From: Deroplatys truncata
Taxonomy: Eukaryota > Arthropoda > Insecta > Mantodea > Mantidae
DNA: 64,000 nt
NCBI GenBank assembly: GCA_030765065.1
Contig: CM060985.1
Span: 178,996,096-179,060,095, forward strand
Reading direction: 5' to 3'
Position 1 is the stretch's first letter. Each line of letters begins with the position of its first letter. Below, one piece after another: positions 2,461-33,810 of this stretch. The notes under the pieces are model-generated. The model did not search any database. It saw nothing but the letters and a program-made list of their open reading frames with translations, and was not told the DNA's origin. A program made the translations under genes and the position numbers.

Positions 2461-3138
2461 TCCTTAAAAATCTGATGCGATACATTCGCATGACTTTCTC
2501 TACCCCTCTATCGTTTATTAGTTGGTACACAAACTAGTCTTATTAATGGTTATATATCTGTCTACTTAATTTTAATCCAAATAAAACTTTGCAGAAATAG
2601 CTACATTACACATTTTGTTATGGGTTCGAAGAGAACAACGACAGTCAAATGTTGAAGAACATTGAACAATTCGGACCATTAATAACGATATCTCGGAAAT
2701 GGCTGTTGCTACAGAACGTTATTTGAATAAGCTGTGTTTTAAAGAGATCTACATTTTCTGCAGTACTTTTTCGTCTATCGCTTAATGTTTAAAAGTTATA
2801 CAAGAATATATGAAACTCTTTCCCAATGAAGAGGACTTTACAAGCTATTCTCAGAAAATTCAAGATATATACTTTATTTATCATGTAAATATCATTAATA
2901 TATAGTACTTAAATCAATCGTTAAGATCCAGTTTTGGAAAATAAAACAATTCCAAAAATGTTTCATATAAAAGGTATTTTGAGCTAGGGGGATGTTGTTG
3001 AAAATCTTCGTATCTCATCTTTGGAAGGTACTGAACCTAAATATGAAATTTGGTATTTATCGAACTTTTCCTTTCTGAGTTATACCCTTCACAAACACAC
3101 ACATACGTGGACCTTTCTCCAAAAATACTTAGAAAAGA
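2461..3138 (+). repeat. Interspersed repeat family A copy, 3' truncated
   Basis: It starts with the family left end (tctgatgcgatacattcgcatgactttctctac) and runs through the central blocks to the acacacac tract. The terminal ~120 bp are missing. It lies in the intron between exons 6 and 7 of the CUB gene, ending about 20 bases from exon 6. Confidence 0.7.
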
Positions 3139-3156
3139 TAAATATCTTCTACTCAC

Positions 3157-3284
3157 TCATAATCCCCGATTCAGAGGTCCTTTCCAGCAGTTCATTTGAA
3201 TCCTCATGATTAATGGCTTTTTCAACGAATTCCACGGTCGCCAGGAAACCGTTGTATCCATAAGGTGGTATAGATGATCCAGAA
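3157..3284 (-). CDS. CUB-domain gene, exon 6 of those visible (end of second CUB and linker)
   Basis: The exon is 128 bp with acceptor gcttttcag and donor atga|gtgagt on the minus strand. It starts with 1 base and ends with 1 base of a codon, both matching the neighbouring exons (AG+T before, A+TG after). It encodes the final strand of a CUB domain, SGSSIPPYGYNGFLATVEFV, a very typical CUB ending (F.S......GF.A....). A charged linker with NHEDSNELLERTSESG follows. The linker separates CUB2 from CUB3. Confidence 0.88.
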
Positions 3285-3492
3285 CTGAAAAGCATGAAAC
3301 AGTGTGGTTAATACTTAGCGCACTACTGGGTGTTCATTACAAAATGTCTTATGACTCCATTGGTTTGATGCGACTATCAGCTCTAAGGTGCAAAATGTAG
3401 CCTAGCAGGACGGCAACACTCAAACATTTTAGGAAATCAAAACAAGGATTAGTTTTAAAAAAAATTTAGATGCTAAAGGCGAATATTTTGAA

Positions 3493-4322
3493 AAAAATCT
3501 GATGTCTTACACTCACATGATTTTCTCTACCCTTGTACAAACTATTTTTACAAACGCTTATTCTCCATATGCTTCGTGTTAATCGATATGTTAATCTTAT
3601 TGCTAATTTTCTTGTAGATGCAAGGGGAATTGCTAGACTTTAAGCGATAGTCAAATGTTTTAAGAGCTGGTTGCTATGTGGCGCATTCCATTCTCTTTGC
3701 ATGTCCAGTACATAAAAAAGAAATGAATAACGAATTCTCATTTGAGAAAAAGTATAAGTATTGGAAAATTTAAGGGAATAACAAGCAATATCTTGAAAAT
3801 GGTTCACTCAACAACAAAAACGTATATGACATAAATTGTGTATTTTAACGCGATCTACATTTTTTGTGCAGTAAAATTTTGTGTATCTCTTATGGTTTAT
3901 CAGTTATGCAAAAGTCGTTCACAATGAAGAATACTTTTGGAGATATTCCCAGAAAATTCGAGATATACATTTCATTTGTTATAAAAATATCTTAAACATA
4001 TGATATTTTAATCAAAATCGTTAGAACCATTTTTGAGAAAATTAAAATTTTCGAAAAATGTTCCATGTGGGGTGGAGGGATTTTCTTGAAAATCTTTGTG
4101 TCGCATCTCTGGAAGATACTGAACCTAAATACCAAGTTTGTTGTTTATCCGACTGTTCGTTTCTGAGTTATGCTACTGACAGACACACACACAGAGATGT
4201 TTCCAAAAATGCTTTTTTTGGATTCAAGGGGTCTCAAAACATGTATTTCCGGTGAAATCTCGGTATCGAATTTTTGGGTGGAATACAATACTTCCCCTAC
4301 TTACTATACATACTACAGAAAG
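3493..4322 (+). repeat. Interspersed repeat family A, complete copy
   Basis: It runs from the left end (aaaaatctgatgtcttacactcacatgatttt) to the right end (ctacagaaagtaaaaatt), about 830 bp. It contains no coding capacity; the short open frames in it are incidental. Confidence 0.75.
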
Positions 4323-5924: not shown

Positions 5925-7016
5925 AAAAGATGCAACACGAAGGTTTTCAAGAAAATCTCTCACGTCAAACTACCCTTTCCGTGTAACATTTTTAGAATTT
6001 TTTGAGTTACGAAAAATGAATGTAACGATACTTATTAAAATGCCATTATTGTAGATATTTGCGTCTCAAATATATATCTTGAATTTTCTGGAACTAACTT
6101 GTGAATTCCCCTTCATTCGTATGCAAATTTATATAATCTTGCATAGCTGATAAACGTTAAGCGATAGACTAAAACGTGCTACACGAAAATGTAGATCTCT
6201 TTAAAACACACAATTTATTTCAAATACCGTTTTTGTGGCATTAGCCATTTCCGATATATCCATTATTAATGGTTCGAATAGTTCAATACCTAGCCATTCT
6301 TTTAAACTCCTGTCGATTTTCAGTTCTCGCGGTCCCCATAAGGAGGGGGTGTTCAGACCCCTTCAGCTCTCACGCTGCGGACCCTGAGCACTAGTGTTAC
6401 TTCTGACGTTACTAGAAGTACGCTGAGTCAAACATCCAAGCCCCACTCGTGAGAATGTTGTTCGGATTGGGTTAGACTCGGTGGAGCAGTGGTTAACGAT
6501 AGTCGTGGAAGATAGGGTTTCCGTCCAGGCGAGGTTGTCCTCCTGTACCGCCCTGGAGGGCCGGTAGATGGTCCACTTGGACTGTCGACCCCACCGTGCT
6601 GCTTCGGTAGTCTTCCCCTTTGGGGTATGACGCGCATAAGTGCTGTATGTCCTTCCATCCTGTAATGGGGGTGGTGGTTTTAATTTTCACGTGCCGGCCT
6701 ACCGAAAAGCCTTCGGGGGTGGGAGAGCCTCTCGGATGGCGTCCTCCTCCATGAGTGTTACTGTTTCTCGCGATGTCATGGAAACAGTATGGAATTTTAA
6801 GGCAGCATATAGCGTCCAGTTGTTAAACATTTGACTATCGCTGTTCTCTTTGTATCAATAATGAAATGTGTAATGTAGCTGTTTCTGTAAACATTTATCT
6901 GGATTAAAATTAATTAGATAGAAAAATAAACTTTCTAGGAATAATTTCTGTACCCACTAATAAGCGATAAAGAGTAGAGAATGTCATATGAATGTAACAA
7001 ATCAGATTTTTTTAAA
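5925..7016 (-). repeat. Interspersed repeat family A copy, interrupted
   Basis: A reverse-orientation copy runs from the 'cttgaaaaccttcg' block (5925) to the left end (gagaatgtcatatgaatgtaacaaatcag, ~7016). It is split by an unrelated GC-richer insertion of about 450 bp at roughly 6318-6765. The right-terminal block is absent. Confidence 0.65.
6318..6765 (+). repeat. SINE-like insertion inside a family A repeat
   Basis: This GC-richer segment interrupts a family A copy. It carries an A-box-like ggtggagcagtggttaacg at about 6479, followed by a weak B-box-like ggtttccgtcc about 30 bases on. That spacing and the uneven composition suggest a tRNA-derived short element. I cannot define exact ends or duplications. 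Confidence 0.35.
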
Positions 7017-15206: not shown

Positions 15207-15579
15207 ATACCATTTTGTTTCGTTTTTTCTCCACTAGGAGTATTCTAACAATCATGGATAAAACAATAGCGAATTCCTACTGCAAGCCAGATGGCAGAAA
15301 ATAATGCTTATACGATCAAGTTGCACTAATGAAACAAACGAAAGGTGGCCATACAATTCTAACTTGTTTTCGGTAACAGCGGCATTTGTATTGCAAATAA
15401 ATACATTATGTGATCAAAAGTATCCGGACACCCCTACATACATACGTTTTTTTATCTTAGGTGCATTGTGCTGCCACCTACTGCCTTGTACTCATTATCC
15501 GCGATCTCAGTAGTCATTAGACATCGTGAAACAGAAGAATGGGACGCTCCGTGAGTAGGTTATTTAGAAGAGAGCTGGC

Positions 15580-16645
15580 ACAGTTTTTTGCGTTTATATG
15601 GGAAAGGATAGGGAAAACGAGGGTGGATGCGGAGGGCTAAGGAGGAAAATGCGTTTATATGGGCGAGATAGGGAATACGAGGACTGACACTAGGCTAGAC
15701 AGCGGCAGAAGGAGGGGGATGCGCTTTATATGGAAGAGATAGTGGAGAGGTGCTAGGCTAGACAGAGGCTGAGAGTAGAGTATGCGTTTATATGTATGAG
15801 AGGTATAGGAGCAGGAGGAGCGGTGCTAGGCAAGACAGAGGTTGAGTAGAGTATCGGTTATATGAGAGAGGTAGGGAACAGGAGCAGGGGTGTTAGGCTA
15901 GACAGAGGTCGAGAAGTAGAGTATGGTTTATATGAAAGGTATAGGAAAACGAGGAGGGGTGTTAGGCTAGACAGAGGTTGAGGAGTGGAGTATGGTTTAT
16001 ATGAGAAGTATAGGAAAACGATGAGAGGTATTAGGTTAGGAGAATTGAGTATGTGTTTATAAGAAGATACGAGAAAACGGAGAGATCCTATTATAGGATA
16101 GACAGGTGTTAAAGGTAGAATGTGTTTTATATGAGCGGTATAGGAAACCAAAGAGAGATTCTCAGCTAGACAGGCATCAGGAGAGGAATGCGCTTTATGA
16201 GAGGTAGGGGATACGGGGAGTGGTGTTAGGCTAGACAGAGGTTGAGAGTAGAGTATGCGTTTATATGTATGAGAAGTATAGGAACAGGAAGAGGGGTGTT
16301 AGGCTAGACAGAGGTTGAGGAGTAGAGTATAGTTTATATGAGAGGTATAGGAAAACGAGGAGAGGTGTTAGGCTAGACAGAGGTCGAAAATAGAGTATGG
16401 TTTATATGAGAGGTATGGGAAAACGAGGAAAGGAGTTAGACTAGACAGAGGTCGAGGAGCAGAGTATGGTTTATATGAGAGTCATAGGAAAACGAGAGAG
16501 GTGTTAGGCTAGACAGAGCTAGAGGAGTAGAGTATGGTTTATATGAGAGGTATAGGAACAGGAGGAGAGGTGTTAGGCTAGACAGATACTAAAGGAGTAG
16601 CAATATGGGTTTATATACAGGAGAGATACGGAATAGGAGGTGCTA
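15580..16645. repeat. Subterminal ~65-bp satellite, left arm
   Basis: About 16-17 diverged tandem units are built on 'gtgttaggctagacagaggt', 'agagtatggtttatatgagaggtatagg' and 'aaaacgagga'. Unit lengths vary around 60-70 bp. The array starts within about 30 bp of the element's end. No coding meaning is seen. Confidence 0.8.
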
Positions 16646-16732
16646 GACCTTGAAAGCGACTTTAGATGTGAACTTAGTGGAAAACTGTTTCATGTCAACG
16701 TTATATACGTTCCCATCATGTAACCCATTCAG

Positions 16733-17960
16733 GGAAAAGGTGACCAGCAAAGGGAAAAAGGTGACCAGCAAAGGGAAAAATGTGACCAGCAAAGGGAAAA
16801 AGGTGACCAGTAAAGGGAAAAAGGTGACCAGCAAAGGGAAAAATGTGACCAGCAAAGGGAAAAACGTGACCAGGAAAGGGAAAAAGGTGACCAGGAAAGG
16901 GAAAAAGGTGCCCAGCAAAGGGAAAAACGTGACCAGCAAAGGGAAAAAGGTGACCAGCAAAGGGAAAAAGGTGACCGGCAAAGGGAAAAAGGTGACCGGC
17001 AAAGGGAAAAAGGTGACCAGGAAAGGGAAAAAGGTGACCAGGAAAGGGAAAAAGGTGACCAGGAAAGGGAAAAAGGTGACCAGGAAAGGGAAAAAGGTGA
17101 CCAGCAAAGGGAAAAAGGTGACCAGCAAACGGAAAAAGGTGACCAGCAAAGGGAAAAAGGTGACCAGCAAAGGGAAAAACGTGACCAGCAAAAGGGAAAA
17201 GGTGACCAGCAAAGGGAAAAAGGTGACCAGCAAAGGGAAAAATGTGACCAGCAAAGGGAAAAAGATGACCAACAAAGGGAAAAACGTGACCAGCAAAGGG
17301 AAAAAGGTGACCAGGAAAGGGAAAAAGGTGACCAGCAAAGGGAAAAAGGTGACCAGGAAAGGCAAAAAGGTGACCAGCAAAGGGAAAAAGGTGACCAGCA
17401 AAGGGAAAAAGGTGACCAGCAAAGGGAAAAGGTGGCCAGCAAAGGGAAAAAAAGGTGACCAGTAAAGGGAAAAACGTGACCTGCAAAGGGAAAAGGTGAC
17501 CAGCAAAGGGAAAAAGGTGACCAGCAAAGGGAAAAAGGTGACCAGCAAAGGGAAAAAGGTGACCAGCAATGGGAAAAAGGTGACCAGCAAAGGGAAAAAC
17601 GTGACCAGCAAAGGGAAAAAGGTGACCAGCAAAGGGAAAAAGGTGACCAGTAAAGGGAAAAAGGTGACCAACAAAGGGAAAAATCTGACCAACAAAGGGA
17701 AAAAGGTGACCAGCAAAGGGAAAAACGTGACCAGCAAAGGGAAAAATGTGACCAACAAAGGGAAAAAGGTGACCAGCAAAGGGAAAAATGCGACCAGCAA
17801 CGGGAAAAAGGTGACCAGCAAAGGGAAAAAGGCGAGCAGTAAAGGGAAAATGTGACCAGCAAAGGGAAAAAGGTGGCTAGCAAAGGGAAAAAGGTGACCA
17901 GCAAAGGGAAAAAGGTGATCAGCAAAGGGAAAAAGGTGACCTGCAACGGGAAAAAGGGGA
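16733..17960. repeat. 21-bp minisatellite, left arm
   Basis: About 58 tandem units of the form aaaggtgaccagcaaaggga, with frequent variants at a few positions (gaccagg, gaccggc, aacgtg). Because 21 is a multiple of 3, long open frames run through it on both strands; these are artefacts of the repeat. Confidence 0.95.
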
Positions 17961-18577
17961 CCCACTCAGGGAAAAGGGCAGGGAAAAGGTGGCTCTCTCA
18001 CGGGAAAAGCTAACCCACTCACACTAACAGGTAAGTAATTTAGTTAGTATCACAGGGTAGGACTGATCCCGGGAAGCGGATATAGCATAGCTCCGTATGA
18101 TGTTACAGGTAATTCAGAGAGTATCATAGGTATTTAGGATAATTCAAGTAACATAGGTGTTTAAAATCACTCAGCTAGTATCACAGGTACTCATGGTAAT
18201 ATAGAGAGTAATTAGATTATAAACATTTCTCATCCAACGTTACAACAATTTATATACTTTTTTCTAAATCTTACAAACTTATTATATGTTAAACAGTTAT
18301 TGTGCGATGCGGAGAGGGATAAACTGCATATTGGTTCACAAATTGAAAATCTTTACGTCAACATACCTTTATTTTAGCTCATTGTAGATGTCTCTCCCCT
18401 TTTATCTAGGCTTGAGACTAGCACTAGGATTGCTCCTAATGGCAGGGTTACCACCTTCCCTTCCATCTTCTTCTTTCTTCATCAGGCGTCTGCTAGTTGC
18501 ATACGCAGCACACGGATAAACTTCATTTTTAAGATTGTAGACTCACGAGAAAATCTTCATCTTCGACTTACATTCTC
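17961..18577 (-). other. 3' flank of the left polB copy
   Basis: This unique sequence lies between the minisatellite and the polymerase stop. It holds an aataaa polyadenylation signal in the polymerase sense at 18368-18373, about 205 bp past the stop. No other feature is seen. Confidence 0.6.
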
Positions 18578-21500
18578 TTAAGCACTGTTTGTAATACTGT
18601 AATGTCCATATGCATAGGTAGTTATTCCATCCTCAGCAATAATTCTTTTATCATCAAAGGGATTCAATGCAATTTTATTCACTTGCACTGTGGTAACATC
18701 ATGCTTTCGTGATAGGATTGGATTCATGGGAGTTCTGATGATTTCACAGGTTTTAAGACAGTCTGTATAGCTGTCAAACGAAATGTACTGCTTAATAGCG
18801 CTACGTTTTATACCTTTAATCTTTTTTATCATTGAGCCTTGAATATCTAAGGCATACATCTTAGGACGTAGTCCAACAAAGCGTAGGATGATTTTGCTGT
18901 TAGCCTCATCTTTAAATTTTCCCAATACCTTCTTGTTCTGAGTAGAGTGGCATATATGATTGGCAGGGTAATCAGCTGTATCGAGATGCTCAAGAAAACG
19001 TAACTTGTCCTGGTACACATCTTCAGTTGTAACACGATGAATGAATGAATCAGTGTCCATATACATAAGCCTCAGGTTTTCAGCTCCATAATAAGGCAAC
19101 AACACATCGTAATGGTAGTTATACATTAATGTCTTGGAGATGTCCAACACACTCATTCCAATGTATATAGGCTTGTTGAATACAATCTGACGAGAGGCCA
19201 TATGTACAGCAGCTAGATTAGCAGCATATATCGTCCTGTCGATAAACGTAGGCTTGGCGATCAACTTTTCTAGAGTTTTTTCATTGGTCACCAGTCGTAT
19301 ATCCATACGGTTACGCAGGTTCTCCATAGTTTTTCCAAACATAGCGTTGTTAAAGAGCTTGTAGAGATCCTTCTCGAAATCATTTGCAGCTTGTTGTCGT
19401 AGCCTGTTGTTAAATTCCACATAAGGTTTCAACCATCGAGACTGTAGGAATTGTAGCACACGATGGATTTTTGTTAGCCGTAGTCCATGACTAAGAGCCT
19501 GCTTCAAAGCCATGTAATGCACTACATACTTCTTTCGAGGTCCAAGATGAGGTATCAGTTTCTTTGTAGATGCTTCCAATGGTTTCATACACTCAGGCAG
19601 GAAAGGTAAATCGTTGTGTAGATCGTGAAGTTCTGCAGGATATTCGATATCAACTTCTAATATGTACCCATGAGGATCATCTTCTTGTAGTGTTTCTAAG
19701 TTGATTTCTTCAGGCGAAACCCACTGAAATCCACCAAAAGGAAGGGCGTGACACATTGCCCACCCATATTGGTTATTGGCGTCCTCATATGTGATGAATT
19801 GGGTCGGTCTCGACGGATCAAACTTCTCCATATACGTGTTATTAGCCTCAGCATACCGATGGGAAACTTGACATAAACCTCCTCTTATACCTGATTCCAC
19901 CATGAGTAGTTGATCATAATCTTGTAACAGCTCCAGCTTAATTCCTGTATACAACAACATGGCGTCCCATGTAATTCCTGGAGAGGTAAAATAATGGGAA
20001 GGATCGACTTTGTGTGTTTTAAGGGTTTGCTCTCTGAACGTCTCAAAGACATCGGCTAGGAGTAGTACATCTGAGGTTAAGTAGAGATCGCTGTACTCTC
20101 CCAGGTTTCTTACATTAAACAGCTCCCATACATTTCTAGCATGATCGTAGTCAGCATCACTAATTTCTTCTTCATTTAATCTATTGTAGAAGGAGTCCTT
20201 AGGAGGCAAGCAGGTCTCGTTCAAAACATCCCAGGAAGTGACGTAATCATAGGGAAATACGCCCTTACGGGTCATCAACTTCAATTTGTCTTCTCCAAAG
20301 TACTTTAGTGTTTCAGGATATGAGGTTAGATTTTTTACCAACTTATCCAAGCTTGTACTGAGGAAACGGAAGCTGTCCACAAATCGAAGCTTTATATCTC
20401 CTACATACTTGGTGAATGAGATATAGCTTTCTTCAGAGTTAGGAATTACCTCCACACGTTCACTTGTACAACCCAGCTCCTTAACAATGAAATGAGAGTC
20501 ATATCCGCTAAGGTTATGCATGAAGACTGGTATATATTTAGGTGTTTTACAGGCTAAATTACATTCATTATGAAGACTTCCACGATATTCACCGCTGATG
20601 TGATCATGATCGCGTACTTTATAGTTCTCTTCTGTAAAGGGTTTTCCACACAAGTAGCATGTCGTAGAGAAGACTCAAAATCCTTTTGCTGTTGATCCGT
20701 GAGTTTCAGAGGCTAGCAGATTTGTATATGCCATCAATCATTTTTGCAAGAGATGTCAGGTACAACATAAAACTCTGAGCAGCATCAGCACCACGATACA
20801 CATAGGGATGCCTAGGAAGACCAGTTTCAATATGTTCAACACTGGATGTAGGCTTCACGTAAACACAGAAGCTCATTGGTGTGTGCTCTTGATAAGGGGT
20901 TGTATAGGAAGTTTCAGGATTGGGTATACACGTATGGCATGGAGTGAGAATACTCTCAAAATCCGCATAGATGACATAAGGTACTTTCAGCATCCTCTCA
21001 ACATTTTTAAACTGTACAATTGCTTTCTCCTTGGTAGGCATAACTACCCTTGCAACACCATGTTGAATACAGACGGTTGCATGTTCTTGTAGTTTTTCCA
21101 GTCCACTTCGTCCATATCGATCATCAAAATGTGTAAAGCAGCGCTTACAAGTATAAACCGTCCATTACATTTAGTTTTCTGGCATCGAATGAGTTTCTCA
21201 AAATTCTTTATATATACGTAGTGATGTTTTCCACTACTATCACTCAATAGTAGCAGGTCGCAGTGTTCAGGTAGTTCAATATCAGCAACCTTTATTGGAT
21301 ACACTTCATGCTTCTCATCCAGTCCGAAAACGTTAACAGACATATTGTTAAACTTCTCAAATTTAGGTATTTGAGAAAGTGGAGTAGGGTAGGAAACACA
21401 GCCGAAGTCGTACTTGTCTTGAAGTTGTTTGTATTTGTTCACACGCTGTGCATTGTTCCCTATGAATTTAGCTAATACGGAGTACATGAAACATTTCTCG

Positions 21501-22230
21501 TCGCTAAAGTTCTGAATGTTTATACATGCTTTCTTTGCTTCAACAGATGACGGTAGTGGTATGTAGCTACTTCCTCGTAACGGGTTGTACTTGTTGATAC
21601 GAAGTCGAACTCCTTCCACAGCAAGCAAAGCCCAGCTGCTACCCTTAAGCTGAGACTCCTCCATTTCAGTCACCAATTTCTTGAATTTCGCTTCCAGTGT
21701 CGAGTCCAGATCTGTTTCTAGGAAAACAGGATGATTCCTTGTTTTAAATGTTTTGTCACAGGTTTCTCCAATACTGTTAACAAATCGACACTCAGCCAGC
21801 AGATTAATTTTAACACTCTTGTGAATACCAAGCTCTTTATGCACAGCCTGGATTATGCGTTGTTTTGCTTCATGCAGATACATATTCAGGTCCTTAGGTG
21901 ATTCGCATCGTATAAAATAAGATTTCAATCGTCCTTCGAATGAAGTTTCGTATTCTTTCATATCACAGTCCTCCATTGTTGACAGTAACTGATGTTTAGT
22001 TGGCTCCAATCTTCTTTTCTTCTGAGGGATGCTTATTTCACATATATCTTCGTGTCGCTGCCCCTTATAACCATCATTGAAGGTCAAGCTACAATGTTTA
22101 CATTTAAAGAGCTTCTTGCAGCTCATCTCGTGTCTTCTCTTGTCATAACTCGGAGGAACTTCTTCCCACATTTTCCGCATGCATATCCAGTAGCGCTTGG
22201 AATAATATCCTTATACGCTGAGGTATTCAT
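18578..22230 (-). pseudogene. Protein-primed family B DNA polymerase (polB) of the palindromic element, left copy (fossil)
   Basis: The gene runs outward from the centre. Parts in order: two C2H2-type zinc fingers at the N-terminus (CGKCGKKF then CKHCSLTF), a CFMYSVLAK...HHYVYIKNF segment, the exonuclease motif YADFES, a Cys-x2-Cys...DHDH...HNECN endonuclease-VII-like insert, and HNLSGYDSHF (exo II). Then come YLTSDVLLLADV (exo III), palm motif A DANNQYGWAM, motif B LFNNAMFGKTMEN, and motif C YMDTDSF at 19043-19063. These are the protein-primed polymerases of Polintons and related viruses, which copy linear DNA from a terminal protein. The copy is broken, about two breaks. All catalytic signatures are still readable. 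Confidence 0.85.
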
Positions 22231-22364
22231 CTTTATTCTTGATGTAATAACGTATTAATCACTGATCAATGAAATGTAGACCTCTTCACCTTGACACCAC
22301 TTAGAAAGCTGATTATTCTTGGAGAGAACACAATGTTAACACCTCAACACTAATTAGCGCAATG

Positions 22365-22572
22365 AACTCCAATGCCCTAGATCACCGTATTTATAGAGGG
22401 AGCACGAGCCTTTTAGATCAATCATAAACTCGCTCCATAGCTACCTGTATATGTTTGCTCCACGCGTATTAACCTCACGCCCAGAGTCAGGATGTTTATG
22501 ACGTCACACCCAGAGACAGGATGTCTGGCAGTATCAAACACGTTTAAACTCGTCTCGTAACTACCTGTATGT
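22365..22572 (-). promoter_or_regulatory. polB promoter region, left copy
   Basis: Mirror image of the right-arm promoter. It has TATAAATA at 22388-22395 with an initiator about 30 bases downstream, a cAMP-response-type TGACGTCA at 22499-22506, and two pairs of upstream repeats. Confidence 0.6.
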
Positions 22573-22907
22573 GCTGTCACACCAACAAGAGAAGTATTCC
22601 CACACGCTCATTCAGTCAAATGTTCCATTCAAAGCCTACCATCACCCATTACACCAAAGCTAGTACAATCTCTATTATCAAAACACTTAAAAGTAAAGGC
22701 TTAAAAGGTAACGTAGAAGATTTTCCCCCTTATTTACTTAAATGTGTGTATATATTACATTATTTCATGTTTTCATTCCCTTTTCAATTCTTCCTTTCCA
22801 TCTTCTTTCAGAAAGACCATTACATTTCACTACAATCACGAGAAAAGCAATTTTTCCAGAGTTTCACAGATTCTAAGCTTCTAGAATCGAACCCGGTAAT
22901 AGTTTAA
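22569..22907 (+). CDS. Hypothetical 112-residue frame, left arm
   Basis: The frame runs inwards, divergent from polB, and its start overlaps the outermost promoter repeat. It encodes a Ser/Thr/Lys-rich first half (RSFSQMFHSKPTITHYTKAS) and a hydrophobic aromatic stretch (YILHYFMFSFPFQFFLSIFF) that could be one membrane segment. The product is identical in both arms, but the arms are so similar that this alone does not show selection. Its 3' end overlaps the first B-box-like motif. No homologue is recognised and it may be a chance frame. Confidence 0.3.
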   Translation: MCCHTNKRSIPTRSFSQMFHSKPTITHYTKASTISIIKTLKSKGLKGNVEDFPPYLLKCVYILHYFMFSFPFQFFLSIFFQKDHYISLQSREKQFFQSFTDSKLLESNPVIV

Positions 22908-24001
22908 TAAATGTATTTTTAGTAATTTAGCTCCCTCGCATCAGCACCTACCATTTAATCTTTACTCGAACCTGATAGGATTCATAGGCTTGAAGATATA
23001 TGAAATCACCCCTTCGGGATTCGATCTGAGTACTTTAAAGTACTTTTTGTCATGATAACGATATTTAGGAACTAGGTACTCTGTTTACGGTTTACTTGAC
23101 GTGTCTATATAAATTAGATTACGAGTTATTAAATTTGAAAGTAAATTTCATTAAATCGGTATTCGAACCCAGAACACCAGGAACAAAATGATTTATAATA
23201 TTAGCTTGACATGTTAAACAAAGCTGTGTGCAGTTACGCTATCAATCTAAGTGATATATTCTAGTGTACAGAGGAAAATTAAGGAACTCATTAAAAGATG
23301 GGGGAATCGAACCAAGCACAACTGATTGACAATTATATACAGCATTAATTACCCAGTACAGAACCTATCAAACATGCTTTAGCCCACTCCTCTACCTCAT
23401 TTAGTTCCAGAGATAATGAAGATTTAAAATTAAGAATCGAACTCAGGACACCAGATCCCCAAATATAGATACGCAAGAAACTACCTATTGATATAAATGT
23501 AATAAAGTTTATTTGACGTCTTTATCTTAAGTAGTTTAGGAGTTATTAAATTTATAATTAAATTACATTTTATCGGTATTCGAACCCAGAACACCAGAAA
23601 CAAAATTATTTATAAAATTAGTTTGCTATGTTAAAAAGAGTTGTATACAGTTACGCAATCAATCTAAGTTATATATTCTAGTATACAGAGAAAAATTAAG
23701 GAAATCATTTAAAAATCGGGATTCGAACTAGGGACAACTGATTGAAAATTATATACAGTATTAATTACACATTATAACAGCTATCAAACATGCTTTGGTT
23801 CATCCCTCTACCTCCCTTAGTTTCCGAGATAATGAAGATTTAAAATTAAGGATCGAACCCTGGACGTCAGGTATCCAAATGTACATTCAGAAGAAACTAC
23901 CTGATGATATAAATGTAATAAAATTTATTTGGCGTCTTTATCTTAATCAGTCTCTGAGTTATTAGAAGTTGAATTTGTAATTACTCGTAGGATTCGAACC
24001 C
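22883..24001 (-). repeat. Array of tRNA-like B-box motifs, left arm
   Basis: Mirror of the right-arm array: nine main motifs of the form ggttcgaatcc on the minus strand, all oriented outward toward polB. They are spaced about 130-144 bp within a ~417-bp higher-order unit. Details are under the right-arm entry. Confidence 0.7.
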
Positions 24002-24133
24002 AGGCATCCCGGACAACTCGGATTAATATCTCAAGGACGCGGCGCATTCCAAAGAATTGATTAGTTTTTATCCCATTGTTCTATCTCTTTTCATTCAGGA
24101 GATATAAGCGATTAATCAGTAGCAGGGAATTGA

Positions 24134-24209
24134 CAGTTCTGGCTCACTTAATATGCATGGAATGAAATTAATATGCTAATTAGCCCCCTCCCAATAATTA
24201 GCCCCACTC
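24134..24209. other. 76-bp unique spacer at the palindrome centre
   Basis: This is the only non-inverted part of the element. It contains two copies of aattagcccc separated by ctcccaat, and two ttaatatgc blocks. It could be the loop of a hairpin or a former replication junction; nothing in it identifies a function. Confidence 0.7.
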
Positions 24210-24341
24210 TCAATTCCCTACTACTGATTAATCGCTTATATCTCCTGAATGAAAAGAGATAGAACAATGGGATAAAAACTAATCAATTCTTTGGAATGCG
24301 CCGCGTCCTTGAGATATTAATCCGAGTTGTCCGGGATGCCT

Positions 24342-25460
24342 GGGTTCGAATCCTACGAGTAATTACAAATTCAACTTCTAATAACTCAGAGACTGATTAA
24401 GATAAAGACGCCAAATAAATTTTATTACATTTATATCATCAGGTAGTTTCTTCTGAATGTACATTTGGATACCTGACGTCCAGGGTTCGATCCTTAATTT
24501 TAAATCTTCATTATCTCGGAAACTAAGGGAGGTAGAGGGATGAACCAAAGCATGTTTGATAGCTGTAATAATGTGTAATTAATACTGTATATAATTTTCA
24601 ATCAGTTGTCCCTAGTTCGAATCCCGATTTTTAAATGATTTCCTTAATTTTTCTCTGTATACTAGAATATATCACTTAGATTGATTGCGTAACTGTATAC
24701 AACTCTTTTTAACATAGCAAACTAATTTTATAAATAATTTTGTTTCTGGTGTTCTGGGTTCGAATACCGATAAAATGTAATTTAATTATAAATTTAATAA
24801 CTCCTAAACTACTTAAGATAAAGACGTCAAATAAACTTTATTACATTTATATCAATAGGTAGTTTCTTGCGTATCTATATTTGGGGATCTGGTGTCCTGA
24901 GTTCGATTCTTAATTTTAAATCTTCATTATCTCTGGAACTAAATGAGGTAGAGGAGTGGGCTAAAGCATGTTTGATAGGTTCTGTACTGGGTAATTAATG
25001 CTGTATATAATTGTCAATCAGTTGTGCTTGGTTCGATTCCCCCATCTTTTAATGAGTTCCTTAATTTTCCTCTGTACACTAGAATATATCACTTAGATTG
25101 ATAGCGTAACTGCACACAGCTTTGTTTAACATGTCAAGCTAATATTATAAATCATTTTGTTCCTGGTGTTCTGGGTTCGAATACCGATTTAATGAAATTT
25201 ACTTTCAAATTTAATAACTCGTAATCTAATTTATATAGACACGTCAAGTAAACCGTAAACAGAGTACCTAGTTCCTAAATATCGTTATCATGACAAAAAG
25301 TACTTTAAAGTACTCAGATCGAATCCCGAAGGGGTGATTTCATATATCTTCAAGCCTATGAATCCTATCAGGTTCGAGTAAAGATTAAATGGTAGGTGCT
25401 GATGCGAGGGAGCTAAATTACTAAAAATACATTTATTAAACTATTACCGGGTTCGATTCT
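24342..25460 (+). repeat. Array of tRNA-like B-box motifs, right arm
   Basis: Motifs matching the tRNA T-arm/B-box (GGTTCGAATCC) start at about 24342, 24483, 24613, 24756, 24899, 25030, 25173, 25317 and 25449, plus a weaker one at 25371. All are on the plus strand. Successive gaps are 141, 130, 143, 143, 131, 143, 144 and 132 bp, and motifs three apart are 414-419 bp apart. At 25102 tagcgtaactgc matches the A-box consensus (TRGCNNARYNGG) at 11 of 12 positions, and a similar site precedes the motif at 24756. Runs of four or five T follow several motifs (24483, 24613, 24899, 25030), as RNA polymerase III terminators do. T-stems pair poorly, so these are not ordinary tRNA genes. Confidence 0.7.
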
Positions 25461-25774
25461 AGAAGCTTAGAATCTGTGAAACTCTGGAAAAATTGCTTTT
25501 CTCGTGATTGTAGTGAAATGTAATGGTCTTTCTGAAAGAAGATGGAAAGGAAGAATTGAAAAGGGAATGAAAACATGAAATAATGTAATATATACACACA
25601 TTTAAGTAAATAAGGGGGAAAATCTTCTACGTTACCTTTTAAGCCTTTACTTTTAAGTGTTTTGATAATAGAGATTGTACTAGCTTTGGTGTAATGGGTG
25701 ATGGTAGGCTTTGAATGGAACATTTGACTGAATGAGCGTGTGGGAATACTTCTCTTGTTGGTGTGACAGCACAT
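25436..25774 (-). CDS. Hypothetical 112-residue frame, right arm
   Basis: Mirror copy of the frame at 22569-22907, with an identical predicted product. It diverges from polB and runs toward the centre. It shares the reservations of the left copy. Confidence 0.3.
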   Translation of the reverse strand: MCCHTNKRSIPTRSFSQMFHSKPTITHYTKASTISIIKTLKSKGLKGNVEDFPPYLLKCVYILHYFMFSFPFQFFLSIFFQKDHYISLQSREKQFFQSFTDSKLLESNPVIV

Positions 25775-25982
25775 ACAGGTAGTTACGAGACGAGTTTAAA
25801 CGTGTTTGATACTGCCAGACATCCTGTCTCTGGGTGTGACGTCATAAACATCCTGACTCTGGGCGTGAGGTTAATACGCGTGGAGCAAACATATACAGGT
25901 AGCTATGGAGCGAGTTTATGATTGATCTAAAAGGCTCGTGCTCCCTCTATAAATACGGTGATCTAGGGCATTGGAGTTCATT
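25771..25982 (+). promoter_or_regulatory. polB promoter region, right copy
   Basis: TATAAATA at 25948-25955 is followed by TCATT at 25978-25982, an initiator whose A is 32 bases after the TATA start. The predicted 5' leader to the ATG at 26113 is about 133 bp. Upstream are two nested repeat pairs. One is (a/c)ata(t/c)acaggtag...cgagttta at 25771 and 25891, exactly 120 bp apart. The other is catcctg(t/a)ctctggg(t/c)gtga at 25820 and 25849, 29 bp apart. The first of the inner pair contains a palindromic TGACGTCA (25837-25844), the CREB/ATF consensus. Confidence 0.65.
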
Positions 25983-26112
25983 GCGCTAATTAGTGTTGAG
26001 GTGTTAACATTGTGTTCTCTCCAAGAATAATCAGCTTTCTAAGTGGTGTCAAGGTGAAGAGGTCTACATTTCATTGATCAGTGATTAATACGTTATTACA
26101 TCAAGAATAAAG

Positions 26113-29100
26113 ATGAATACCTCAGCGTATAAGGATATTATTCCAAGCGCTACTGGATATGCATGCGGAAAATGTGGGAAGAAGTTCCTCCGAGGTTATG
26201 ACAAGAGAAGACACGAGATGAGCTGCAAGAAGCTCTTTAAATGTAAACATTGTAGCTTGACCTTCAATGATGGTTATAAGGGGCAGCGACACGAAGATAT
26301 ATGTGAAATAAGCATCCCTCAGAAGAAAAGAAGATTGGAGCCAACTAAACATCAGTTACTGTCAACAATGGAGGACTGTGATATGAAAGAATACGAAACT
26401 TCATTCGAAGGACGATTGAAATCTTATTTTATACGATGCGAATCACCTAAGGACCTGAATATGTATCTGCATGAAGCAAAACAACGCATAATCCAGGCTG
26501 TGCATAAAGAGCTTGGTATTCACAAGAGTGTTAAAATTAATCTGCTGGCTGAGTGTCGATTTGTTAACAGTATTGGAGAAACCTGTGACAAAACATTTAA
26601 AACAAGGAATCATCCTGTTTTCCTAGAAACAGATCTGGACTCGACACTGGAAGCGAAATTCAAGAAATTGGTGACTGAAATGGAGGAGTCTCAGCTTAAG
26701 GGTAGCAGCTGGGCATTGCTTGCTGTGGAAGGAGTTCGACTTCGTATCAACAAGTACAACCCGTTACGAGGAAGTAGCTACATACCACTACCGTCATCTG
26801 TTGAAGCAAAGAAAGCATGTATAAACATTCAGAACTTTAGCGACGAGAAATGTTTCATGTACTCCGTATTAGCTAAATTCATAGGGAACAATGCACAGCG
26901 TGTGAACAAATACAAACAACTTCAAGACAAGTACGACTTCGGCTGTGTTTCCTACCCTACTCCACTTTCTCAAATACCTAAATTTGAGAAGTTTAACAAT
27001 ATGTCTGTTAACGTTTCCGGACTGGATGAGAAGCATGAAGTGTATCCAATAAAGGTTGCTGATATTGAACTACCTGAACACTGCGACCCGCTACTATTGA
27101 GTGATAGTAGTGGAAAACATCACTACGTATATATAAAGAATTTTGAGAAACTCATTCGATGCCAGAAAACTAAATGTAATGGACGGGTTTATACTTGTAA
27201 GCGCTGCTTTACACATTTTGATGATCGATATGGACGAAGTGGACTGGAAAAACTACAAGAACATGCAACCGTCTGTATTCAACATGGTGTTGCAAGGGTA
27301 GTTATGCCTACCAAGGAGAAAGCAATTGTACAGTTTAAAAATGTTGAGAGGATGCTGAAAGTACCTTATGTCATCTATGCGGATTTTGAGAGTATTCTCA
27401 CTCCATGCCATACGTGTATACCCAATCCTGAAACTTCCTATACAACCCCTTATCAAGAGCACACACCAATGAGCTTCTGTGTTTACGTGAAGCCTACATC
27501 CATGTTGAACATATTGAAACTGGTCTTCCTAGGCATCCCTATGTGTATCGTGGTGCTGATGCTGCTCAGAAGTTTATGTTGTACCTGACATCTCTTGCAA
27601 AAATGATTGATGGCATATACAAATCTGCTAAGCCTCTGAAACTCACGGATCAACAGCAAAAGGATTTTGAGTCTTCTACGACATGCTACTTGTGTGGAAA
27701 ACCCTTTACAGAAGAGAACTATAAAGTACGCGATTATGATCACATCAGTGGTGAATATCGTGGAAGTCTTCATAATGAATGTAATTTAGCCTGTAAAACA
27801 CCTTAATATATACCAGTCTTCATGCATAACCTTAGCGGATATGACTCTCATTTCATTGTTAAGGAGCTGGGTTGTACAAGTGAACGTGTGGAGGTAATTC
27901 CTAACTCTGAAGAAAGCTATATCTCATTCACCAAGTATGTAGGAGATATAAAGCTTCGATTTGTGGACAGCTTCCGTTTCCTCAGTACAAGCTTGGATAA
28001 GTTGGTAAAAAATCTAACCTCATATCCTGAAACACTAAAGTACTTTGGAGAAGACAAATTGAAGTTGATGACCCGTAAGGGCGTATTTCCCTATGATTAC
28101 GTCACTTCCTGGGATGTTTTGAACGAGACCTGCTTGCCTCCTAAGGAGTCCTTCTACAATAGATTAAATGAAGAAGAAATTAGTGATGCTGACTACGATC
28201 ATGCTAGAAATGTATGGGAGCTGTTTAATGTAAGAAACCTGGGAGAGTACAGCGATCTCTACTTAACCTCAGATGTACTACTCCTAGCCGATGTCTTTGA
28301 GACGTTCAGAGAGCAAACCCTTAAAACACACAAAGTCGATCCTTCCCATTATTTTACCTCTCCAGGAATTACATGGGACGCCATGTTGTTGTATACAGGA
28401 ATTAAGCTGGAGCTGTTACAAGATTATGATCAACTACTCATGGTGGAATCAGGTATAAGAGGAGGTTTATGTCAAGTTTCCCATCGGTATGCTGAGGCTA
28501 ATAACACGTATATGGAGAAGTTTGATCTGTCGAGACCGACCCAATTCATCACATATGAGGACGCCAATAACCAATATGGGTGGGCAATGTGTCACGCCCT
28601 TCCTTTTGGTGGATTTCAGTGGGTTTCGCCTGAAGAAATCAACTTAGAAACACTACAAGAAGATGATCCTCATGGGTACATATTAGAAGTTGATATCGAA
28701 TATCCTGCAGAACTTCACGATCTACACAACGATTTACCTTTCCTGCCTGAGTGTATGAAACCATTGGAAGCATCTACAAAGAAACTGATACCTCATCTTG
28801 GACCTCGAAAGAAGTATGTAGTGCATTACATGGCTTTAAAGCAGGCTCTTAGTCATGGACTACGGCTAACAAAAATCCATCGTGTGCTACAATTCCTACA
28901 GTCTCGATGGTTGAAACCTTATGTGGAATTTAACAACAGGCTACGACAACAAGCTGCAAATGATTTCGAGAAGGATCTCTACAAGCTCTTTAACAACGCT
29001 ATGTTTGGAAAAACTATGGAGAACCTGCGTAACCGTATGGATATACGACTGGTGACCAATGAAAAAACTCTAGAAAAGTTGATCGCCAAGCCTACGTTTA

Positions 29101-29765
29101 TCGACAGGACGATATATGCTGCTAATCTAGCTGCTGTACATATGGCCTCTCGTCAGATTGTATTCAACAAGCCTATATACATTGGAATGAGTGTGTTGGA
29201 CATCTCCAAGACATTAATGTATAACTACCACTACGACGTGTTGTTGCCTTATTATGGAGCTGAAAACCTGAGGCTTATGTATATGGACACTGATTCATTC
29301 ATTCATCGTGTTACAACTGAAGATGTGTACCAGGACAAGTTACGTTTTCTTGAGCATCTCGATACAGCTGATTACCCTGCCAATCATATATGCCACTCTA
29401 CTCAGAACAAGAAGGTATTGGGAAAATTTAAAGATGAGGCTAACAGCAAAATCATCCTACGCTTTGTTGGACTACGTCCTAAGATGTATGCCTTAGATAT
29501 TCAAGGCTCAATGATAAAAAAGATTAAAGGTATAAAACGTAGCGCTATTAAGCAGTACATTTCGTTTGACAGCTATACAGACTGTCTTAAAACCTGTGAA
29601 ATCATCAGAACTCCCATGAATCTAAACCTATCACGAAAGCATGATGTTACCACAGTGCAAGTGAATAAAATTGCATTGAATCCCTTTGATGATAAAAGAA
29701 TTATTGCTGAGGATGGAATAACTACCTATGCATATGGACATTACAGTATTACAAACAGTGCTTAA
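26113..29765 (+). pseudogene. Protein-primed family B DNA polymerase (polB) of the palindromic element, right copy (fossil)
   Basis: Same gene as the left copy. It starts at the ATG following the TATA/initiator promoter, preceding the zinc fingers (CGKCGKKF, residues ~19-26). By nucleotide position: exonuclease motif YADFES near 27373-27390, endonuclease-VII-like Cys/His insert about 27683-27785, exo II about 27825-27855, exo III about 28260-28300, motif A about 28554-28590, motif B about 28990-29025, motif C (YMDTDSF) 29280-29300. An aataaa lies at 29970. The family's usual partners (integrase, capsid, ATPase) are missing next to it. The copy is broken, about two breaks, with catalytic signatures readable. 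Confidence 0.85.
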
Positions 29766-30388
29766 GAGAATGTAAGTCGAAGATGAAGATTTTCTCGTGA
29801 GTCTACAATCTTAAAAATGAAGTTTATCCGTGTTCTGTGTATGCAACTAGCAGACGCCTGATGAAGAAAGAAGAAGATGGAAGGGAAGGTGGTAACCCTG
29901 CCATTAGGAGCAATCCTAGTGCTAGTCTCAAGCCTAGATAAAAGGGGAGAGACATCTACAATGAGCTAAAATAAAGGTATGTTGACGTAAAGATTTTCAA
30001 TTTGTGAACCAATATGCAGTTTATCCCTCTCCGCATCGCACAATAACTGTTTAACATATAATAAGTTTGTAAGATTTAGAAAAAAGTATATAAATTGTTG
30101 TAACGTTGGATGAGAAATGTTTATAATCTAATTACTCTCTATATTACCATGAGTACCTGTGATACTAGCTGAGTGATTTTAAACACCTATGTTACTTGAA
30201 TTATCCTAAATACCTATGATACTCTCTGAATTACCTGTAACATCATACGGAGCTATGCTATATCCGCTTCCCGGGATCAGTCCTACCCTGTGATACTAAC
30301 TAAATTACTTACCTGTTAGTGTGAGTGGGTTAGCTTTTCCCGTGAGAGAGCCACCTTTTCCCTGCCCTTTTCCCTGAGTGGGTCCCCT
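29766..30388 (+). other. 3' flank of the right polB copy
   Basis: Mirror of 17961-18577, with the polyadenylation signal aataaa at 29970-29975. It is otherwise featureless. Confidence 0.6.
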
Positions 30389-31570
30389 TTTTCCCGTTGC
30401 AGGTCACCTTTTTCCCTTTGCTGATCACCTTTTTCCCTTTGCTGGTCACCTTTTTCCCTTTGCTAGCCACCTTTTTCCCTTTGCTGGTCACATTTTCCCT
30501 TTACTGCTCGCCTTTTTCCCTTTGCTGGTCACCTTTTTCCCGTTGCTGGTCGCATTTTTCCCTTTGCTGGTCACCTTTTTCCCTTTGTTGGTCACATTTT
30601 TCCCTTTGCTGGTCACGTTTTTCCCTTTGCTGGTCACCTTTTTCCCTTTGTTGGTCAGATTTTTCCCTTTGTTGGTCACCTTTTTCCCTTTACTGGTCAC
30701 CTTTTTCCCTTTGCTGGTCACCTTTTTCCCTTTGCTGGTCACGTTTTTCCCTTTGCTGGTCACGTTTTTCCCTTTGCTGGTCACCTTTTTCCCTTTGCTG
30801 GTCACCTTTTTCCCTTTGCTGGTCACCTTTTTCCCTTTGCTGGTCACCTTTTCCCTTTGCAGGTCACGTTTTTCCCTCTTCTGGTCCCGTTTTTCCCTTT
30901 ACTGGTCACCTTTTTTTCCCTTTGCTGGCCACCTTTTCCCTCTGCTGGTCACCTTTTTCCCTTTGCTGGTCACCTTTTTCCCTTTGCTGGTCACCTTTTT
31001 CCCTTTCCTTGTCACCTTTTTCCCTTTGCTGGTCACCTTTTTCCCTTTGCTGGTCACCTTTTTCCCTTTGCTGGTCACGTTTTTCCCTTTGCTGGTCACC
31101 TTTTTCCCATTGCTGGTCACATTTTTCCCTTTGCTGGTCACCTTTTTCCCTTTGCTGGTCACCTTTTCCCTTTTTCTGGTCACGTTTTTCCCTTTGCTGG
31201 TCACCTTTTTCCCTTTCCTGGTCACCTTTTTCCCTTTCCTGGTCACCTTTTTCCCTTTCCTGGTCACCTTTTTCCCTTTGCCGGTCACCTTTTTCCCTTT
31301 GCCGGTCACCTTTTTCCCTTTGCTGGTCACCTTTTTCCCTTTGCTGGTCACGTTTTTCCCTTTGCTGGTCACGTTTTTCCCTTTGCTGGTCACCTTTTTC
31401 CCTTTCCTGGTCACCTTTTTCCCTTTCCTGGTCACCTTTTTCCCTTTGCTGGTCACATTTTTCCCTTTGCTGGTCACCTTTTTCCCTTTACTGGTCACCT
31501 TTTTCCCTTTGCTGGTCACATTTTTCCCTTTGCTGGTCACCTTTTTCCCTTTGATGGTCACCTTTTCCCT
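30389..31570. repeat. 21-bp minisatellite, right arm
   Basis: About 56 units of ctttttccctttgctggtcac, the mirror of the left array and about two units shorter. All long open frames inside are repeat artefacts. Confidence 0.95.
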
Positions 31571-31654
31571 GAATGGGTTACATGATGGGAATGTATATAA
31601 CGTTGACATGAAACAGTTTTCCACTAAGTTCACATCTAAAGTCGCTTTCAAGGT

Positions 31655-32720
31655 CTAGCACCTCCTATTCCGTATCTCTCCTGTATATAAACCCATATTG
31701 CTACTCCTTTAGTATCTGTCTAGCCTAACACCTCTCCTCCTGTTCCTATACCTCTCATATAAACCATACTCTACTCCTCTAGCTCTGTCTAGCCTAACAC
31801 CTCTCTCGTTTTCCTATGACTCTCATATAAACCATACTCTGCTCCTCGACCTCTGTCTAGTCTAACTCCTTTCCTCGTTTTCCCATACCTCTCATATAAA
31901 CCATACTCTATTTTCGACCTCTGTCTAGCCTAACACCTCTCCTCGTTTTCCTATACCTCTCATATAAACTATACTCTACTCCTCAACCTCTGTCTAGCCT
32001 AACACCCCTCTTCCTGTTCCTATACTTCTCATACATATAAACGCATACTCTACTCTCAACCTCTGTCTAGCCTAACACCACTCCCCGTATCCCCTACCTC
32101 TCATAAAGCGCATTCCTCTCCTGATCCCTGTCTAGCTGAGCATCTCTCTTTGGTTTCCTATACCGCTCATATAAAACACATTCTACCTTTAACACCTGTC
32201 TATCCTATAATAGGATCTCTCCGTTTTCTCGTATCTTCTTATAAACACATACTCAATTCTCCTAACCTAATACCTCTCATCGTTTTCCTATACTTCTCAT
32301 ATAAACCATACTCCACTCCTCAACCTCTGTCTAGCCTAACACCCCTCCTCGTTTTCCTATACCTTTCATATAAACCATACTCTACTCTCGACCTCTGTCT
32401 AGCCTAACACCCCTGCTCCTGTTCCCTACCTCTCTCATATAACCGATACTCTACTCAACCTCTGTCTTGCCTAGCACCGCTCCTCCTGCTCCTATACCTC
32501 TCATACATATAAACGCATACTCTACTCTCAGCCTCTGTCTAGCCTAGCACCTCTCCACTATCTCTTCCATATAAAGCGCATCCCCCTCCTTCTGCCGCTG
32601 TCTAGCCTAGTGTCAGTCCTCGTATTCCCTATCTCGCCCATATAAACGCATTTTCCTCCTTAGCCCTCCGCATCCACCCTCGTTTTCCCTATCCTTTCCC
32701 ATATAAACGCAAAAAACTGT
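31655..32720. repeat. Subterminal ~65-bp satellite, right arm
   Basis: Mirror of the left array, with units built on 'cctctgtctagcctaacacc' and 'cctatacctctcatataaaccatactct'. It ends about 25 bp before the element terminus. Confidence 0.8.
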
Positions 32721-32746
32721 GCCAGCTCTCTTCTAAATAACCTACT

Positions 32747-33728
32747 TCCGTGGAACTCACGGACTTCGAACGTGGTCAGGTGATTGGGTGTCACTTGTGT
32801 CAGAAGTCTGTACGCGAGATTTTCACACTCCTAAACATCCCTAGGTCCACTGTTTCTGATGTGATAGTGAATTGGAAACGTGAAGGGACATGTACAGCAC
32901 CAAAGCGTACAGGCCGACCTCGTCTGTTGACTGACAGAGACTGCCGAGGTTTGAAGATGGTCGTAACGAGTAATAGGCAGACATCTATCCAGACCATCAC
33001 ACAGGAATTCCAAACTGCATCAGGATCCACTGCAAGGACTATGACAGTTAGGCGTGAGGTGAGAAACCTTGGATTCCATGGCCGAGCGGCTGCTCATAAG
33101 CCACACATCACGCAGGACGACGTCTTGCTTGGTGTAAGGAGCGTCAACATTACACGATTGAACAGTAGCAAAACGTTGTGTGGAGTGACGAATCACGGTA
33201 CACAATGTGGCGATCCGATTGCAGGGTGTGGGTATGCCGAATGCCCGCTGAACGTCATCTGCCAGCGCGTGCGTGGTGTTGTGGTGTGGTGGTTTTTTCC
33301 TGGAGGGTGTTTGCACCCCTTGTTTTGCGTGGCACGATCACAGCGCAGACCTACATTGATATTTAAGCACCTTCTTGTTTCCCACTGTTGAAGAGCAATT
33401 CGGGGATGGCGATTGCACCTTTCAACACGATCGGCCACCTGTTCATACTGCACGGGTTGTGACGGAGTGTTTACACGACAATAACATCCATGTAATGGAC
33501 TGGCCTGCACAGAGTCCTGACTTGAATCCTATAGAACACCTTTGGGATGTTTTGGAACGCCGACTTCGTGCCAGGCCTCACCGACCTACATCGATACCTC
33601 TCATCAGTCCCGCACTCCGTGAAGAATGGGCTGCCATTCCCCAAGAAACCTTACAGCACCTGATTGAAAGTATACCTGCGAGAGTGCACGCTGTCGTCAA
33701 GGCTAAGGGTGGGCCAACACCATATTGA
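32747..33728 (+). pseudogene. Tc1-type transposase, interrupted and frameshifted
   Basis: The original start (ATG GGA CGC TCC GTG) is at 15539. The palindrome sits after codon 5, and the coding sequence resumes here with ELTDFERGQVIG and the helix-turn-helix VREIFTLLNIPRSTVSDV. GRPRLLTDRD and a second helix-turn-helix follow. The catalytic triad is visible: WSDES near 33180, QHDRPPVHTA near 33420, and DLNPIEHLW near 33525, with 34 residues between the second D and the E (DD34E). It ends KAKGGPTPY. Frame is lost near 33120 and again before 33375, and a TAG falls before the first catalytic D, so it is dead independently of the insertion. Confidence 0.9.
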
Positions 33729-33810
33729 CTTCCAGCATTACTGATGGAGGGCGCCACGAACTTGTACGTCATTTTCAGCCAGGTGTCCGGATACTTTTGA
33801 TCACGTAGTG

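Follow-up and report, generated by a model that had tools for sequence, protein, structure and literature searches.

Palindromic elements, probably derived from Polintons, in the genome of the mantis Deroplatys truncata

A stretch of 64 kb from the genome of the mantis Deroplatys truncata (C11:178996096-179060095, referred to here as the window; genome of 4.29 Gb in 818 contigs) contains a palindrome of 17 kb, which is one copy of a family of elements that carry a virus-type DNA polymerase gene, polB, in each of their two arms. The copies recur across the genome with the same ends, 6-bp target site duplications (TSDs), the same layout and a shared asymmetric spacer at the centre, and their arms have at some point been made alike, as is clearest near the centre. 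The explanation that is regarded as probable is a Polinton-derived palindromic element that takes its integrase from another element and whose arms are equalised by way of a self-complementary replication form.

The copy in the window, W, occupies positions 15554-32746. Its left arm (15554-24137, plus strand) starts with AGTAGGTTATTTAG and its right arm (24206-32746, minus strand) finishes with CTAAATAACCTACT; the exact ends, of the AGT...ACT type, lie at 15554 and 32733-32746, and no further exact copy of the terminal 14-mer was found elsewhere in the window. The arms, of approximately 8.5 kb each, are approximately 99% identical, with four main repeat blocks that are 97-100% complementary, and enclose the central spacer of 68 nt (24138-24205, no strand assigned), which has homologues at the centres of other copies. 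Differences between the arms mostly number 0-4 per 250 bp and are concentrated in a 21-bp tandem array. The insert is bordered by a perfect TSD, TCCGTG, at 15548-15553 and 32747-32752, and interrupts a Tc1 element; the 5' part of the latter (15404-15553, plus strand) and its 3' part (32747-33810, plus strand, with a transposase helix-turn-helix domain, PF01498), both with boundaries drawn by eye, each include one copy of the duplication. When the two parts were joined, the resulting 153 nt matched across the junction, with 97-99% identity, at 40/40 scored places (the best 40 of 2043 candidates), which represent the empty form of the Tc1 element. The initial annotation had described a near-perfect palindrome with exact ends, the tccgtg duplication, arms of about 8.5 kb and the halves of one Tc1 element on either side, all of which agrees with these results; its spacer of 76 bp is close to the 68 nt measured.

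A chance origin of the palindrome is excluded. Very long palindromes are a known artefact of assembly, by a missed adapter or a collapsed interior. Such a source is nevertheless considered very unlikely, because the flanks are unlike each other and carry a precise TSD, the arms have real differences and many copies have the same layout; the homologous spacer and the empty Tc1 site contradict it as well.

The initial annotation had left open whether the palindrome represented a separate lineage of polB elements with this structure or was a single product of foldback or dimerisation, and had proposed a search for further loci with the same ends. The 26-bp end was found 634 times in the genome with up to two mismatches (306 forward, 328 reverse; control 0 and 0). 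One hundred of these, all perfect, were analysed for pairing, and 82 of them form 41 facing pairs, which are 3.0-33.5 kb apart, 38 of the 41 lying between 6.2 and 18 kb; there are no pairs facing away from each other, and two same-strand neighbours within 40 kb. The 6-bp duplication is exact in 37 pairs and has one mismatch in the remaining 4, at 41 different targets that lean weakly to N-A-C-R-T-N. All 41 pairs have ends of the form AGTAGG...CCTACT, by which end they were picked. A search with the first 347 bp of the element gave 14 facing pairs, the one in the window included, among the best 40 of 4866 candidate places. Nine of the 13 others, of 14.1-17.8 kb (A1, A2, A4-A7 and B1-B3), were read as two halves, and the other four at their ends only. 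Every one of the ten copies of 14-18 kb read in both halves, W and these nine, is palindromic, with arms of approximately 7-9 kb. Among short copies, one of two is palindromic; it is 6.3 kb long, its arms match at 95.5% over 2.9 kb, and no polB segment was matched in it.

The centre of the element is closed to 68-224 nt by alignment in W, A2, A4, A6, B2 and B3, and to 17 nt in A6 on closer reading. The five copies other than W, which were picked by their ends, share the W spacer, in mirrored form in A6, and copies A7 and B1 likewise match W right through the spacer. The central 360 bp of W matched at full length and on both strands at all 40 scored places (the best 40 of 1691 candidates), in a search that favours places of this kind. 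The spacer is present base by base, in either genomic orientation, in 25/25 aligned copies, namely W, A2, A4, B2, B3 and the 20 best-ranked of the 40 that had not been read otherwise, A6 being left out. Since an asymmetric spacer is homologous between copies, the palindrome is inherited, and the copies most likely descend from one palindromic ancestor. Most of the 25 aligned copies also keep the TAATTAG motifs seen in the spacer at 24138-24205; as a guess, the spacer could serve as the loop of a hairpin or as a bidirectional promoter for the flanking polB genes.

In A6, approximately 70 nt of once single-copy spacer are mirrored around the 17-nt loop, so that 121 bp are paired, with 1 mismatch, when the adjoining arm is counted. 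This mirroring needs copying back along the strand and shows that a foldback event took place at this centre. It could be argued on this ground that every palindrome arises independently, immediately before insertion, when a non-palindromic parent folds back or dimerises in inverted orientation, which would leave the arms alike within a copy. Palindromic linear DNA with protein-primed replication is known from defective adenovirus genomes and yeast linear plasmids, and a self-complementary form from adeno-associated virus (AAV). However, independent events should give many different axes, and the asymmetric spacer is in the same place in W, in the five other closed-centre copies and at every centre scored in the search above; the shared axis therefore disfavours this explanation. 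Moreover, no non-palindromic parent with these ends was found, except for a short-ended copy of 3.0 kb and the solitary left arm A8 (C12:195453855), in a set where 16 of the 18 unpaired perfect ends are largely unread (A8 was read, and two C5 ends over 200 bp). Formation anew in each copy is improbable. A8 itself stops near arm position 6400, nothing in the next 13 kb matches the element in either orientation, and it was excluded from every pair count. Of the two possibilities put forward initially, the distinct lineage is upheld by the recurring ends, duplications and layout together with the homologous spacer, and the notion that this locus alone is palindromic is contradicted by the large copies. 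A foldback or dimer may explain the origin of the family; a foldback event is seen at the A6 centre.

Comparison of the arms indicated that those of one copy are more alike than arms of different copies, and clearly so near the centre only. Over the central 1.15 kb, the arms of a copy differ by 0.09-0.43%, whereas the distance to any arm of another copy is 1.1% or more, and the own arm is strictly nearest in 6/6 copies having that part in both arms; in this comparison by region, missing blocks were dropped and 12/20 arms were kept for the centre and 13/20 for polB. In the central 185 columns of the 25 aligned copies, 65 left-right differences were counted; when right arms were dealt to copies at random, 1000 shuffles gave 156 on average and never fewer than 127. 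Structural variants also occur in both arms of a copy: in A4 and B2 an identical large part of polB is missing from both, and A4 is in both a mosaic, with ends and centre of A type and a middle like that of B2 and A1. A shortened polB frame is shared by both arms in 3 of 23 polB pairs (754, 846 and 1147 codons), and two further pairs have 1226 codons in both arms; in all five, equal length does not establish the same mutation, and other pairs differ. The tandem arrays vary freely between arms.

Gene conversion acting on the two arms within the chromosome, in source copies as well as once a copy has inserted, would also produce these features with no hairpin form, since within-copy likeness and structural variants in both arms are expected of it too, and the arm comparisons are silent on where the equalising happens. 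The arms of Y-chromosome palindromes are kept equal in this way. Some evidence argues against strong conversion in place. The ratio of nonsynonymous to synonymous differences (pN/pS) of polB against B3 is 0.13-0.19 in ten comparisons, which are not independent, and the left-right differences of six copies, at 13 synonymous and 26 nonsynonymous, are little constrained (Fisher p 0.0035 for 37:20 vs 13:26); the tandem arrays differ freely as well. This pattern fits a polB that would be constrained in the mobile lineage and relaxed or decaying after insertion. In addition, the copying in A6 crossed a spacer with non-complementary halves, which conversion between paired arms should presumably not do. 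Chromosomal conversion is the main rival and is considered rather unlikely.

Equalisation through a self-complementary replication form can be pictured as follows. The linear element would be inserted in trans, probably by the integrase of a resident Polinton, giving 6-bp duplications at its AGT...ACT ends. The palindrome is inherited whole, and its small asymmetric spacer would form the loop. Outside the chromosome, a displaced strand would fold into a full-length hairpin, whose double-stranded end would be available at once for another round of protein-primed replication. As the hairpin pairs the arms, repair or occasional snap-back copying would equalise them before the next insertion, and the inserted arms would then diverge like long terminal repeats (LTRs). 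Conservation of the asymmetric loop argues for correction within the hairpin over snap-back at every round, because the latter would mirror the spacer, as in A6.

Several observations weigh against this reading. The 20 additional spacers were selected for matching the W centre. In the central 185 columns, the own arm is strictly nearest in 8/25 copies, with 3 ties, and minor bases stand in one arm 65 times and in both arms 56 times. Elsewhere, the own arm is strictly nearest in 1/10 copies at arm positions 0-640, 6/10 at 2800-3550 and 3/6 in polB; away from the centre it is often not nearest because the copies are nearly identical there. Copies of the same subfamily differ by 3:5, 4:5 and 3:3 synonymous to nonsynonymous changes, which is no different from the left-right comparison. 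Four of the ten large copies (A1, A5, A7 and B1) have lost the inner 1.4-2.5 kb of one arm, and the inner part of the opposite arm stands unpaired. The 3.0-kb copy has a perfect TSD and yet inverted ends of 99 bp only, so that either insertion does not require a full palindrome or one arm has since disappeared. Only 1/150 integrase places lies within 30 kb of one of the 100 analysed palindrome ends, 19 kb outside A7. Lastly, the identity of the helper element is a guess.

The coding content recognised in the arms is polB. Where unbroken, its frame has 1225 codons, and it is unbroken in both arms of several copies and broken in others. In the window, the left-arm polB region (18578-22180, minus strand) is broken into frames at 18578-20521, 20706-21041 and 21044-22180; the right-arm region (26113-29765, plus strand) has frames at 26113-27588, for the N-terminal part, and 27822-29765, for the DNA_pol_B_2 domain. 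The latter domain (PF03175) was recognised with E 6.8e-24 on the C-terminal frame of 647 amino acids and was not among the matches when the 1225-residue frame was scanned whole. An Endonuclease VII match in this polB is barely above the cut-off (24.2 vs 23.6 bits), and a C2H2-like match is below it. Across the genome, 46 of 68 polB places form 23 neighbour pairs, all in minus/plus order. The polB content is duplicated head to head with the unique interior gone, as the initial annotation had it, the centres of large copies consisting of a short spacer or an unpaired inner arm. Beyond arm position 2000, the ten large copies have no frame of at least 120 codons except polB pieces, frames of the tandem array and one antisense frame of approximately 130-177 codons. 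Six internally deleted or antisense frames gave no Pfam match; those from A1, A4 and B2 resemble polB pieces by eye. Scanned frames of palindromic copies gave no match to an integrase, capsid, ATPase or protease, and no transposase was matched in the arm frames scanned, save for a Mutator-like gene described below. Several frames stay open across the 21-bp array because its period is a multiple of three, and Pfam matches on them (PAAR, RNase_Y_N and others) were rejected as low-complexity. No relatives were confirmed in IMG/VR (single protein; two-sequence alignment), and none was found by sequence in the PDB with E up to 1.

Ordinary Polintons are present in the same genome and, judged on the sequences compared, are a family separate from the palindromes. 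One of them, at C10:79068000-79083000, has polB, integrase, ATPase, capsid and a phospholipase-like gene, and the 15 kb read contain no long inverted repeat. Compared with that of the palindromes, its polB has 42% identity in the C-terminal part (475 amino acids) and 27% in the N-terminal part, and its Endonuclease VII match falls below the cut-off. The genome has numerous relatives of this element in which the capsid and integrase frames are long and open. Searches for Polinton genes gave 38 matches for the packaging ATPase (best 150 of 1207 candidates scored), 126 scored places of 7123 candidates for the double jelly-roll capsid, and 150 scored matches of 9261 candidates for the integrase, many of which have an open frame spanning 309 or 320 codons; capsid and integrase adjoin at 5.2-5.7 kb in 19 places. 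The plentiful resident integrases lend support to a helper in trans. When the 150 integrase and 126 capsid places were compared with the same 100 palindrome ends, none of the 126 capsid places was within 30 kb of such an end. Among the 126, the only capsid neighbours within 40 kb are three minus/plus pairs, 9.4-22.3 kb apart (C4:95173324/95185244, C10:54203865/54213293 and C16:687831100/687853440), and among the 150 scored integrases there are three neighbours within 40 kb, all on the same strand. The capsid pairs hint that capsid-bearing Polintons may form palindromes as well.

The palindromes can be compared with several known systems. Foldback transposons such as Galileo and FB also have long inverted repeats and arms that are alike within a copy; they move by cut and paste with a P-type transposase and its own target duplication, neither of which was found in the palindromes, whereas the latter have polB and Polinton-like 6-bp duplications. 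The palindromic forms of adenovirus and yeast plasmids and the self-complementary AAV form are by-products or engineered, unlike the palindrome family, which is an inherited genomic lineage. With Polintons, or Mavericks, the palindromes share the 6-bp duplications, the AGT...ACT type of ends and the same type of polB, which by its sequence is of the protein-primed kind, priming itself being predicted; a retroviral-like integrase of their own and an interior with capsid, ATPase and protease were not recognised in them. Because three features agree (duplication, ends and polB) and two do not (integrase and capsid interior), the element is classed as Polinton-derived and not as a Polinton. Its arms make up nearly the whole of it, in contrast to the short terminal repeats of Mavericks, which measure 46-1,447 bp in intact vertebrate copies according to one report (PMC8097293). 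The same report gives (AGT)2//(ACT)2 as one Maverick end motif, which the palindrome ends do not match letter for letter. Teratorn (PMC6431247) combines a herpesvirus with piggyBac, measures 41-182 kb and has a unique region, and differs from the palindromes in all three respects. The macronuclear ribosomal DNA of Tetrahymena (PMC5182062) is a palindrome of approximately 21 kb with a 28-bp central spacer, formed via short inverted repeats; it is like the element in layout and differs as a developmental product made anew, with no transposon. No palindromic Polinton or Maverick was found among the titles and abstract openings listed for the open PMC literature, a search that did not extend to Repbase, Dfam, preprints or subscription papers.

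A further possibility, put forward tentatively, is that the family is a lineage with a self-complementary genome, in which a single strand would fold into a duplex of the full length of the element, and a satellite of capsid-bearing Polintons, from which it would borrow integrase and perhaps capsid, so that Polinton replication would be divided among elements.

Other features were noted in the window and in individual copies. In W, 68-69-bp tandem repeats lie by the left end (15744-16586, plus strand) and are mirrored at 31715-32556; the 21-bp array has 58.8 units in the left arm (16731-17962, plus strand) and 56.8 units in its mirror at 30381-31570; and the inner left arm contains a 416-bp tandem duplication (23091-23964, plus strand). 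Scans of the window for tRNAs and against Rfam at the gathering cut-off gave no match. The centre of a 20.3-kb copy is occupied by a Mutator-like transposase gene (C7:158959500-158965500; PF20700, E 9.1e-39). A copy of 33.5 kb (C4:81461950-81495438) has arms of approximately twice the usual length, extended inward, and is palindromic in the pieces read; its inner part has, in each arm, diverged (approximately 80%) repeats of the 69-bp type, and a further long tandem array surrounds the axis. The possibility that this copy contains a nested element of another family was rejected, as the mirrored pieces are 99.7% alike with no boundary and the pieces read form one palindrome.

Long palindromes tend to be unstable, and those known from protein-primed systems are defective by-products; here, a palindrome is the inherited form of an abundant element. 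Questions about how a palindrome is replicated and how its arms stay equal can be addressed in this family with genome data alone. The system bears on how a polymerase gene parts from its integrase and capsid partners and on whether hairpin folding benefits protein-primed replication. If it is true that the arms start equal, the divergence within a copy would provide an LTR-like clock for each insertion.

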